Positions 730-9,000 of a stretch of 64,000 nucleotides of DNA are shown here, in pieces. Both the position numbers and the translations under genes were made by a program. Position 1 is the stretch's first letter; each line of letters begins with the position of its first letter. The stretch lies in the NCBI RefSeq assembly GCF_032854445.1, contig NC_088295.1, positions 41,341,385 through 41,405,384 of the forward strand, read 5' to 3'. The DNA is from Liolophura sinensis (Eukaryota; Mollusca; Polyplacophora; Chitonida; Chitonidae). The notes beneath the pieces were generated by a model. It did not search any database and was not told where the DNA came from. It saw nothing but the letters and a program-made list of their open reading frames with translations.

Positions 730-3009
730 GTGGAATGGAAGCAGACGTTGTGAGCGTGCCAATGCATAAAATGGGCTGCCCTTCATCGACACAAAGTAAG
801 GTGGTGGAAAATTTGTGAATGTAGGAAACGAAGACCCTCCATATACATCAGCTTCTTTAGATAACGCAAACAATTTCTAGAAGACCCTTGTTGCTCTTTA
901 TCTCTTGACTTCAGCTGAAGTTAAGAAAGGAGTGAATTAATGCATATGACGTAGCAGGTTATGATGGTGAGTGAGGAACAAATAGGAAAACAGATTATTC
1001 ATGTAATGTTTATCTGTATAGAATTTTGACCATAATTCTACACATAGACTATGCTATTACATACAGTCAAAGACGACAAAAAGGGTCACGCTTTTTAAAT
1101 GCACGTTGTTTAACTCAAACCTGAATGAAGATATTCAAGAATAAAATTCTTGGTGAATTTTTATTACATAAAAGTTTTTGATTTGTATCAATTCTCCGCC
1201 ATGGGTTACCATGGGTTATCTAGAAGTACACACAGAGTTATAAACTGGTGACAATTTTTTTTCCCCATGGATAAATCAACTTTTTCTGTAGGTGTATGGT
1301 AATGTATATGTATCACGCGTGAGGGAGGATAGGTAGGATTTAAACTAGAGATCAGAATGTTCCATATTATTGTATTAATTCAAAGTTCAACTAACCCACA
1401 ATTTTTTTATCACTGCCCTAAAAGTTTTGGTGCTATGTTGTACCAGCCTACATTTTCTTTGTGATATTACCAGGTTTATTGTACAAAAATTCCTCTTGGT
1501 GACACTCCGTATCTTTTGCTTATACATCATTCAGAGTTTTCCGAAAATACATGGACCCCCAGCGAGGGAAATCTGATGCCCGTCTCAGTGAAACTTGTAA
1601 TGGGCCTGAAATTTGAAAAAAGATGCGGAATGAACAAAGTTGAAGGCCTACCATTTGGGAAGTACTGCCTTTATAAAGTGCAATCCGCACTGACATGTCC
1701 GGAAAACTTCACGCAAGGTTTGCATCGTTTGGCTACATAGACCAAATCAAATCTGTACTTATTGATGAACAAGATAAGATCAAGCGTGAACTACATGTAC
1801 ATTAGAGACAGGTCTTATAATAAAAATCTTTCTACGGAATACAAGTTTGAAATTTTAATGCCATGAAATTTTGATGCCATGCCTGGAATATCGACTGTCT
1901 TCTTAAATCATTGAAAACTGCTGAGCACTTCTCTCCTACATGTTACCAGCTTTATTTACTACTTTGATAGTACTTCTTACATATCCCTTTGGGACCTGGT
2001 ATCTTAGGTTGTTCACAATATACTTCAAATACTCATACATTCTTGTCATGTCCTCTTAAACGATAAACCGGTATGAAAAGACTCGCATTTCTCTCTTTCA
2101 GATGCCACAGTCGTACAGACTGCAAACACTGGAGATTCGAATTACTCCATAGAGTACTGCTGCCGAGATGACGGTGATGAGGATACGCCTGTAACATTTC
2201 CAGAATGGAACGGGCCTTTCTATCTGCTACCTTTTGACAGAATATGCCAGAAGGTATCTATACCTTTTAAACCTGTTGACGTAATGTACACAGGTAAAGC
2301 TCCAACTATATATTATTACATGTATAAGGATTCTTTAGAATTCAATGATACTAACGGGCACAAATTCATGTTTACTGAACGCTGAAGAATCCAGCTGACG
2401 ACTTCATTGATTACTGTTCAGTTCACTGAATTTTCGATGACCTTCACCTAATGTCTCTGCTACCTGCACTTCTGAACTGTCATTCAAGTACACGCATTTC
2501 GCCAGTCATAATCAACATTGTTGCAAATAGCTCAACCGGATGTCAATCGGATGGGGATTACAATAAAAAGTAACGTTGTCACAAGAAGGAGTGATGGGGC
2601 CTCGAGCGTGTAGAATCCAGCCATTAAACCGTCTTTGTTGGTTGGTTAGTTCTCACAACAAACAATCAACATGGTCAAAGTCTTTATTTATTTATTTATT
2701 TCACTGGTGTTTTAAGCCGTACTCAAGAATATTTCACGTATACGACTGCCAGCGGTGTGGTGGGAAGAAACTGAGCAGAGCCCGGGGGAAACGAAGAAAC
2801 ATTCGCAGGTTTCTGTAAGGCCTTAGCACGTCAGACTATTTAAAATGTCTAATCAAATATCTTGTAGGTAATAGACTTCGACGCGAGGGTGGAATTTACG
2901 AAGTGGCTGGTGAATTATACCACAGTTCTGCCTAGAAAAGGCAGCACAGAGGTACTTCCGACTAAGAAAGAAATCAAAATGTACAGGTGCTCATATACCG
3001 TGCAAAACT
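730..3009 (+). CDS. RTK1 ectodomain module 1 (exons W1, A1, B1, C1)
   Basis: This is the first copy of a repeated Cys-rich extracellular module. W1 (730-795) encodes [12 protein letters not shown]1 (1535-1717) has CG, then GKYC, then TCPENF. B1 (2102-2253) has YCC and GPFYLLPF followed by CQ. C1 (2868-3009) has YRCSYT and NC. Intron phases are 1-1, 1-1, 1-0 and 0-1, so the four-exon block is symmetric and can duplicate without breaking frame. A1 and B1 use donors gtttgc and gtatct. W1 was found by its match to the RTK2 exon encoding [13 protein letters not shown] do not recognise the fold. The G-x-YC motif of A recalls the N-terminal domain of nose-resistant-to-fluoxetine proteins, but this is only a weak resemblance. 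Introns of about 740 (796-1534), 380, 610 and 380 bp show no gene; a SINE lies at 2683-2820. Confidence 0.8.
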
Positions 3010-6000: not shown

Positions 6001-9000
6001 TCTACGGTTGGAAGTGTCAACAGGTTTGGTTAACCTTTATTATTAAATTATACACAACGTCTAATACTAATTCTATTATACGACTTCGCGTGTTAGAATC
6101 TAGCCCTCGCTCTATCGGCGACGGCAAAGGCATCTGGCAAAGGTGGGTGCTTTACTCCGAGAACTACGGTACCCTCCACCGCCACTATATAATTGAAATA
6201 TTCTTCAGTATGGCATTAAATAGCCATCAGTCAATCAATCATTCAACCCATCAGTAATGGCAAGTTGTAGATCGTCTATCCTCTTACGAATGAGGTTTCT
6301 GGTTCAGCCTCATCACTCAGCACAAGGCGATAAATCCATCCTTGACGAATTCGATGTCAGTGTCCAGCATCGTGTCTTTGTTTGTTTTAGTGAGACAGCA
6401 CTATAAATATTGAATACTGTATAGGAGACATCATCTGGATAGGCACGAAATAATGTTGAAAGAGGTCTTTTACCCAGATTAACGAACAAACAAATCTGTA
6501 TCCAGATGGTTGTATGTTCCACAGTTGTTGGGCCTATTTGACATCTACTTCATGAATTGGCCTGTCCTGTCTTATTTGCTTAATTTTAACAACTGGTCTA
6601 GTGTTACACCATATTAAGCCACAATGGTACAGTAATAAATGGACAATGTTTTTGCTCATACTTTTAGGTTAAGGGAATGGATGTGAAAAAGCAGCGTCTT
6701 GAGTATCGAGCTGGTGGTCTAGCCAAACACGTGCAGTCCTCCCCTAACGACCTTCTCGGTGTGACGACGAACGCTAATAAAACGGCTGTCACGTTTGTCG
6801 TCTGCAGATATCAGCGAAAACTTCCCTGTAAGTCCTGACAAATTGTTATGTTTATTCCCATTTTTGATGAAGTGATTTCCATTTGTCCAATTTCGTAGGA
6901 TATTTGGCAGAGAACATGAACTAGTGGATTCACTGTTTAAAGTGCGTGGCTTAATTCTTTTAACCGTCTAGTTATTCAGCAAGCAAAGTGCCTTTCCTTT
7001 CAAACTTGAAACGAATTTGACTAAAGGCTACTTGTTCTTGCTTTGTTTACCGAGTTACTTCAATTTCTCCTTATTTACATTTCCACGACGGCAACACTGT
7101 GTACAAGCACTTATGTGGATGAACACAGTGTTGTCTTCAAATTCAACTCTACTACTTCAAACCGGCCCCGATGGCTCAGTTGATAGTGCGTACGCTTTGG
7201 GAGCGGATTACACCTAAGAACTTAAAAGAGGAATTTGTAGCTTCCTTGCTTGGTGTTCAGCATTAAGGGAATAGTGCAACGAATGATTGACGCTTACCAA
7301 TATAATGGATCGGGTGGTGCGGCTTACTTGTCGTCTCAGTGAAGCAGCACTAGATAAAAGAGCGGTGGAAATCCGTCCTGGAAATAAGGGGGCACATTAC
7401 ATGCACTCTATGGACTCCTTCGTCTTCATACGACTGAAAAATTAAGTACGACGTTAAACCATAAGCACTCACTCACTGTAGTACTTCAACTATAGACGGA
7501 AACTCCTAAACTTGCCATATTTAAAGTTTGATACTTTCACAAGGCAATATGTTGATAATTTGATGGCCTTAGACAAACGGTATATCGTCACGAACGTGAA
7601 GGATATATGTCTATCTTGGTTGGGAGACCACAGTTTGTTTTATCTATAGATTAACAACTTTCTATTCACGTTACACATTAAGTTTAAATGCAGTTGCGAC
7701 ATCCATCTAGCTGCTTCCGGTCAAGTCAATGTTACACAACCAGATGAGCATTATATTATTGCTAGACAAGGACAGAATGTTGAAGACCTCAGGCGTTCTG
7801 TTTCATAGTTGTGTATGAACCCTGTTAACTACAGCAAGGTATACAGTATCGCTTTACCCAGGGCACAATGCACTACCTTTCTACCTGGAGCAATGTTAGA
7901 TATCTCCTGGCAAGTTTCGGTACCCGCATCACTGTTTGTTCCCTGTAATTCAAAGCGCGACGGAGATACATTCATTTGTTGTTGAAAATGAGGCTTTTTG
8001 GATGTCGAATAATCGAAGTTTGAGAGTCATTGAAAACGAATGACTGCTTCTCTTTTGAATGTAAAGCACTTGATTTAACGCATGTTTAAATAAAGCAATG
8101 GGTGTCCATGCATGATGGTGTTGGAAATTCGTATTGCATATGATCTACACAAGATCACCTTTATCCGCAGAGCCAACAATTCTTCAGTAACAACTTGTTC
8201 TCAAATTTACCTCACACGACTAAATATACACTGTTTTCTGATTTTACATAGCTTTCAGAGATCCAGTGACATCAGGTACGTATTCAAAACGTGAGCCTTT
8301 TCCGCTGAACTTTACATTTATTTCGCTGTGTAAAACATCCCTTGTTCAAGTATCGTACTTACTTACTTGTTCGGTACATATGTTCCGTGTAAAAAATACC
8401 AAAATTTGACGTGCTGGATATGTTAATAATGTATGAATGTTATGAGAATAATTAGACTGGGGTTTGGAGTAATAAATAATTTAGCTGTCATGAATTGTCT
8501 TATTGGGTACATGTGAAATGTTCATGTAAGATGATATTTGTTGTACTTAAATGTGGTATTCGTGGTACCCATAGTTTTACTTATGCTTTTACTCTACTGT
8601 CTTTTTTTATTCTGCTAACAGGCGGTGATAACTACATGACAATAATTTTGGGTAAGTATCTGGGAACATCTTTATTTCTTCACTGGCTTTTGAAGAGGGA
8701 GTATAAATGCTGAATTTCAGAGCTACTATTTATTTATTTATTTAATTGGTGTTTTACACTGTATTCAAACATATTTCACTTGTACGAAGGTAGCCAGAAT
8801 TATTGTGCGAGACAACCGTTCAGAGTCCGGTGGAAACTCACGGCCATCCGCAATACTGACAGAAGACTCGCAGTGACCGCACTGGTGAGGCTTCTGGGTC
8901 ATTGTGCTACGGTAACATGCTAACCTCTAGGCCACAGAGGCTCTCTCAGAGCTACAGTTTGCGTAAAATCAAGATAAACATTTGCCACACTGCAAAATTA

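Follow-up and report, generated by a model that had tools for sequence, protein, structure and literature searches.

A candidate receptor tyrosine kinase with two ApeC domains, encoded by an inverted gene pair of the chiton Liolophura sinensis

What kind of receptor is encoded when the same four exons occur twice in a row ahead of a kinase? A locus of Liolophura sinensis raises this question. Within a window of 64,000 nt (NC_088295.1, 41,341,385-41,405,384, forward strand; all positions given here are window positions), two genes, RTK1 and RTK2, each carry two tandem sets of the exons W, A, B and C, followed by a transmembrane exon and kinase exons. An earlier inspection of the letters alone, here called the sequence-only reading, had described these sets correctly and had taken the four-exon cassette for a possibly undescribed extracellular module. 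We find instead that the cassette corresponds to ApeC, the C-terminal domain of apextrin (PF16977), and we are highly confident that RTK1 encodes two ApeC domains, a stalk, a transmembrane segment and a tyrosine kinase.

RTK1 (730-14708, plus strand) and RTK2 (41439-22147, minus strand) form an inverted tail-to-tail pair about 7.4 kb apart and are the only two copies of an ApeC receptor kinase within the window. RTK1 is known from W1 onward, its 5' end and N-terminus lying outside the window. The exons of RTK1, all on the plus strand, are as follows.

730-795, plus: W1, start of ApeC domain 1, phase 1-1, placed by splice sites and phase; holds cysteine 1
1535-1717, plus: A1, ApeC domain 1, phase 1-1, placed by splice sites and phase; holds cysteines 2-4, and the Pfam match of the module starts here
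2102-2253, plus: B1, ApeC domain 1, phase 1-0; alone matches ApeC profile positions 123-162 (E 7.6e-8)
2868-3009, plus: C1, end of ApeC domain 1, phase 0-1; the module match reaches the profile end at 208
3391-3444, plus: W2, start of ApeC domain 2; W2 and A2 together match profile positions 1-93 (E 4e-6)
3925-4131, plus: A2, ApeC domain 2, placed by splice sites and phase and by the Pfam match of W2 with A2
5875-6023, plus: B2, ApeC domain 2; alone matches profile positions 128-162 (E 8.3e-8)
6668-6827, plus: C2, end of ApeC domain 2, placed by splice sites and phase; holds cysteine 8
8252-8275, plus: J1, short stalk exon, placed by splice sites and phase only
8622-8651, plus: J2, short stalk exon, placed by splice sites and phase only
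9244-9390, plus: transmembrane and juxtamembrane exon, from hydropathy, splice sites and phase
10348-10470, 10587-10673, 10961-11166, 11877-11986, 12896-13055, 13569-13705 and 14429-14708, plus: K1-K7, kinase, open throughout, with PF07714 and catalytic motifs

Identity of the four-exon module

Using hmmscan against Pfam, we found that all four modules exceed the curated PF16977 cutoff of 26.5 bits, scoring 52.4 and 70.0 bits in RTK1 and 45.9 and 62.5 bits in RTK2 (E-values from 7.8e-12 to 3.3e-19). For the RTK1 product within the window and the RTK2 ectodomain, the ApeC E-values are 6.6e-30 and 1.5e-25, respectively. The four modules are just 23-52% identical to each other, a divergence that hides their relationship from the eye and that lent some appeal to the idea of an undescribed extracellular domain. 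This idea is ruled out by the significant matches of all four modules, and of the W2 and A2 pairs of both genes taken alone, to a known extracellular family, and we give it practically no weight.

By profile alignment, one W-A-B-C cassette is one ApeC domain, because consecutive exons map onto consecutive segments of the profile. The W2 and A2 pair covers profile positions 1-93 in RTK1 and 1-95 in RTK2, each pair exceeding the cutoff without the other exons. The two B exons tried alone, both from RTK1, fall at positions 123-162 and 128-162, and the match reaches the profile end at 208 through the C exon of RTK1 module 1; in the other three modules the best-matching stretch stops at 185, 182 and 180. 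Some pieces are not recognised by themselves. RTK1 W1 and A1 together score 13.3 bits, under the cutoff, and no ApeC match was obtained for the corresponding RTK2 pair or for C1 and C2 of RTK1, the C exons tried alone. NCBIfam returned no family for RTK1 ApeC module 2. A pattern search gave 46 candidates in prokaryote genomes and 64 in viral contigs, none of which was confirmed as an ApeC relative.

The gene structure agrees with this assignment. All eight ectodomain exons of RTK1 (730-6827) have AG/GT borders and run through the phases W 1-1, A 1-1, B 1-0 and C 0-1 twice, and the equivalent eight exons of RTK2 (37475-30463, minus strand) have identical phases, so that the cassette is phase 1 to phase 1 overall, as had been proposed. 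A start of A1 at 1474, behind an upstream AG, was rejected for its wrong frame in favor of 1535. The ApeC match crosses the B-C junction in the best stretch of all four modules, the A-B junction in one of the four, and the W-A junction in two of the four W and A pairs tried. Splicing of the cassette exons to one another is supported by the conserved phases together with these junction-crossing Pfam matches.

Exactly eight cysteines occupy matching columns in every module when the modules are aligned with each other only, and eight conserved cysteines are given as a hallmark of ApeC in passages of two studies (PMC8361754, PMC9585378). Most of the recurring marks listed by the sequence-only reading are invariant in all four modules, namely C, GxYC and CP in A, YCC, PFYL and CQ in B, and CxY in C; the GC of W holds less strictly, with the cysteine present in 4/4 modules and the preceding glycine in 3/4. 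The weak likeness of the A exon to an NRF-type domain found no support, since no NRF family appeared for any module, W and A pair or tested exon at E-values up to 10, a listing from which the HMMER filters drop most matches above about 0.1.

Predicted receptor kinase and its inverted copy

RTK1 has the predicted makeup of a receptor tyrosine kinase, with a transmembrane segment placed by hydropathy and a kinase domain with catalytic motifs. The highest 19-residue hydropathy in its 804-residue product (2.57) falls in the transmembrane exon, between the ectodomain and the kinase, and the maximum in RTK2 is 2.60 (stalk and transmembrane stretch only). The kinase matches PF07714 (PK_Tyr_Ser-Thr) at 308.4 bits, and its catalytic motifs, among them the glycine loop and DFG, are present. 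Compared with solved structures (best 60 of 2338 rows), the RTK1 kinase domain is closest to those of the TAM receptors AXL (253.5 bits) and MER (244.4 bits), the insulin receptor (252.3 bits), IGF1R (240.5 bits) and MET (240 bits); at the top of these rows stands a chain labelled EGFR, with 370.1 bits in two stretches, which we do not interpret. The kinase thus falls among these receptors, but assignment to one receptor family was rejected, as the candidate scores in these rows lie within about 6% of each other. NCBIfam listed 12 families for the kinase, all under their cutoffs.

The likeness to these receptors ends at the ectodomain. TAM ectodomains consist of Ig plus FN3 domains and that of MET of Sema, PSI and IPT domains, whereas the Pfam scan of the two proteins, with the N-terminus of RTK1 lying outside the window, gave ApeC and kinase families only. 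No Ig, FN3, Sema, PSI or receptor L-domain match was found in the proteins scanned, and the first four had also gone unrecognised when the letters were inspected by eye.

Could the architecture be an artefact of annotation, in which a dual-ApeC gene adjoins a kinase gene and the two are joined on paper? Between C2 (ending at 6827) and the transmembrane exon (starting at 9244) lie 2.4 kb, with only two tiny exons, placed by splice sites and phase alone, a layout that would suit such a join. Against it, the joined exons of RTK1 hold a single open frame from W1 to the stop codon, and the inverted paralogue repeats the exon order and phases, including the phase-1 junctions and the short stalk exons. 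We consider the artefact very improbable. The exons of this paralogue, RTK2, are all on the minus strand.

41313-41439, minus: first exon, with a hydrophobic leader that is a candidate signal peptide
40124-40039 and 39251-38747, minus: N-terminal region in two exons, without a Pfam family and with weak cadherin resemblance
37475-37293 (W1), 36191-36012 (A1), 34996-34842 (B1) and 34390-34246 (C1), minus: ApeC domain 1, PF16977 at 45.9 bits
33696-33643 (W2), 32421-32212 (A2), 31105-30963 (B2) and 30604-30463 (C2), minus: ApeC domain 2, PF16977 at 62.5 bits
30082-30047, 29625-29590 and 29168-29133, minus: stalk, a 36-base exon in three copies, from sequence comparison
27610-27750, minus: transmembrane exon, from hydropathy
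22147-26954, minus: K1-K7, kinase; K1-K4 open, K5-K7 with four one-base insertions relative to RTK1

Is RTK2 still a receptor? Across a stretch extended to 22127, 20 bases beyond the stop codon, the seven kinase exons of the two genes are 76-88% identical as DNA. K1-K4 align without gaps, and K5, K6 and K7 of RTK2 (23598-22147, minus strand) contain one, two and one single-base insertions, respectively, which break the frame, so that these exons, unlike their RTK1 counterparts, cannot each be read through in one frame. This pattern could mean that RTK2 is decaying, or serves as a decoy with an ectodomain only, and that signalling is left to RTK1. Yet K1-K4 are free of gaps, all eight ApeC exons are open, K5, K6 and K7 retain 86%, 88% and 76% DNA identity to RTK1, and one of the three frames preserves the C-terminal tail. 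Single-base insertions clustered in one stretch also resemble assembly errors. As the insertions may reflect either these or decay, our statements on a working kinase rest on RTK1. We regard a decaying or decoy RTK2 as somewhat doubtful.

The C-terminal tails of the two genes (14429-14708 and 22418-22147) have in common a tyrosine-bearing stretch, NY(V/A)DYREAS(F/L)RAK, which is a candidate docking site.

Ahead of the membrane, the RTK2 stalk exon is tripled in a 457-base tandem array (29062-30275), whose 300-base units match the reference unit at 94% and 66% identity. The copies at 30082-30047 and 29625-29590 are one base apart, and the third (29168-29133) runs into the transmembrane segment. 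It is possible that these exons are used either in a mutually exclusive or in an additive manner. At the other end of the gene, the 39251-38747 exon encodes 168 residues whose weak sequence matches in the PDB are cadherins in 6/7 cases (best E 0.02). It could be a cadherin-like domain, an identity that we leave as a lead because no Pfam family matched the N-terminal exons.

Divergence of the paralogues and surroundings of the pair

Like-numbered modules of the two genes are 36% (module 1) and 52% (module 2) identical, compared with 23% and 27% for the two modules within a gene; the remaining pairs stand at 32% (RTK1 module 1 with RTK2 module 2) and 27%. Because like-numbered modules across genes exceed the within-gene identity, the domain was probably doubled before the gene, an order that the identities suggest clearly for module 2 and less so for module 1 (36% versus 32%).

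We next consider how the parts of the receptor have diverged since. Nonsynonymous (dN) and synonymous (dS) divergence was compared over codons not split by introns, leaving out the stalk exons and K5-K7; dS is near saturation, which makes all dN/dS ratios rough. Kinase exons K1-K4 (172 codons) retain 90% identical residues (dN 0.06, dS 1.00), whereas ApeC domain 1 (173 codons) retains 37% (dN 0.56, dS 1.25) and ApeC domain 2 (179 codons) 52% (dN 0.44, dS 1.15). The transmembrane and juxtamembrane exon (46 codons; 27610-27750 versus 9244-9390) is 37% identical (dN 0.65, dS 2.44). Gene conversion as the source of the kinase similarity was rejected, the kinase dS of 1.00 being close to the ApeC dS of 1.15-1.25. 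Since synonymous divergence is alike in kinase and ApeC domains, the contrast between the two parts points to different constraint.

Elsewhere in the window, a Rho GDP-dissociation inhibitor gene lies at 51644-54735 (minus strand), with PF02115 at 91.1 and 36.3 bits in the two exons tried. It is followed at about 60000-63920 (plus strand) by a gene for a flavoprotein whose N-terminus carries a nucleotide-binding motif; the one exon tested gave weak Pfam matches, and we take the gene to be probably a ferredoxin/adrenodoxin reductase. A dispersed repeat of about 80-125 bases occurs in introns and intergenic sequence at 2678, 4374, 8720, 11208, 33213, 44445 and other positions, with an 81-base core in six direct copies as well as inverted copies. 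No RNA family matched within the window.

Candidate ligands and relation to known ApeC proteins

ApeC domains are widespread among invertebrates. Oyster, snail and amphioxus ApeC proteins made in recombinant form are reported to agglutinate microbes and to bind peptidoglycan of the Lys type (PMC9585378, PMC8361754). The first of these sources names Lys-type peptidoglycan as the primary target of every ApeC domain studied to date, and the binding tests it describes come from secreted short-form proteins (PMC9585378). Microbial cell-wall peptidoglycan would be the leading ligand candidate, because the tested ApeC domains bind it. By analogy, the two ApeC domains may together serve as a lectin-like double head for a repetitive glycan. 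A multivalent ligand would then bring receptors together, the clustered kinases would phosphorylate each other, and the cell would respond by defence or by strengthening a barrier. The ligand, the clustering and the response are each inferred. Taken whole, a dual-ApeC receptor tyrosine kinase clustered by glycan, perhaps microbial peptidoglycan, and signalling such a response is a reading that we place a little short of probable.

Several observations weigh against it. The DXED (or DEXD) motifs of canonical ApeC domains are absent from all four modules (0/4), and RTK1 module 2 showed no sequence resemblance to solved structures at E-values up to 1. The transmembrane exon diverges like the ApeC domains, so that fast divergence is common to everything tested outside the kinase; relaxed constraint outside the kinase is a fair reading of this, and the ApeC dN/dS of about 0.4 suggests constraint and not positive selection. 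We do not treat the lack of DXED as disqualifying, because all three motifs are also mutated in ACP5 and BgACP1, both accepted as members; passages of the same two sources describe these motifs as relatively conserved only (PMC8361754, PMC9585378), and snail BgACP1 is stated to bind peptidoglycan still, with its three motifs mutated (PMC9585378).

The same receptor could instead recognise an endogenous ligand, such as a host glycan, a component of matrix or mucus, or an ApeC protein that is secreted, and serve development, epithelial adhesion or tissue repair. A host ligand is equally conceivable because apextrin was first found in embryonic matrix: according to passages of the two sources, it was first described as a protein of the apical matrix in sea-urchin larvae, and two mussel ApeC proteins rise strongly in embryos (PMC8361754, PMC9585378). 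The presence of only two copies in the window, the missing DXED motifs and a transmembrane exon that diverges like the ectodomain, such that divergence need not reflect microbial targets, are all in keeping with a self ligand. On the other side stand the peptidoglycan binding reported for every ApeC domain examined and the far quicker divergence of the ectodomains than of the kinase, a less common pattern where a self ligand is fixed. We consider an endogenous ligand a realistic alternative that falls short of probable. A microbial glycan as the ligand we hold only tentatively, at about the same strength as an endogenous one; that the transmembrane exon diverges as fast as the ApeC domains takes a little from this ligand and from the reading as a whole. 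In its strongest form, the microbial reading holds that a glycan of microbial cell walls acts directly, through the tandem ApeC domains, to activate an animal receptor tyrosine kinase whose outside diversifies while its kinase stays fixed; this appears unlikely.

How does such a receptor relate to what is known? DDR receptors and the LysM or lectin receptor kinases of plants are analogues, with a carbohydrate- or matrix-binding ectodomain set on a kinase; their ectodomains are unrelated to ApeC, and the plant receptors are mostly Ser/Thr kinases. Known ApeC proteins (PF16977), comprising apextrins with MACPF and ApeC domains and the short-form ACPs, resemble the modules described here in scoring above the Pfam cutoff, in their eight cysteines and in a length of about 180-190 residues per domain. 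They differ in that the architectures named in published passages come without a kinase, and in the DXED motifs that RTK1 and RTK2 lack. The tandem ApeC pair is also found in molluscan ACP group 6, for which the section text names no kinase, although the accompanying figure and supplementary table may hold one (PMC9585378); the dual-ApeC module is a recognised arrangement whose purpose that section states to be unexplained (PMC9585378). In the main text of this source, as far as it was available, the word kinase appears once, in a reference title (PMC9585378), and the available main text of an oyster kinome paper does not contain the word ApeC (PMC4883820). No ApeC receptor kinase appeared among the literature matches listed, which comprised titles and abstract starts, and the main ApeC census, figures and supplements outside that scope may list one. 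The ApeC domain and the dual-ApeC module are therefore known already, and the new element may be their combination with a transmembrane segment and a tyrosine kinase, an architecture that the sequence-only reading did not name and that may be undescribed.

If the proposed dual-ApeC receptor kinase is real in the form we suggest, pattern recognition and growth-factor-type signalling would be fused in one protein, and receptor tyrosine kinases would gain an ectodomain of the lectin type. A dual-ApeC receptor that carries a kinase of its own would also offer a direct assay, with glycan in and phosphorylation out, which could reveal whether recognition by ApeC is coupled to a kinase pathway.

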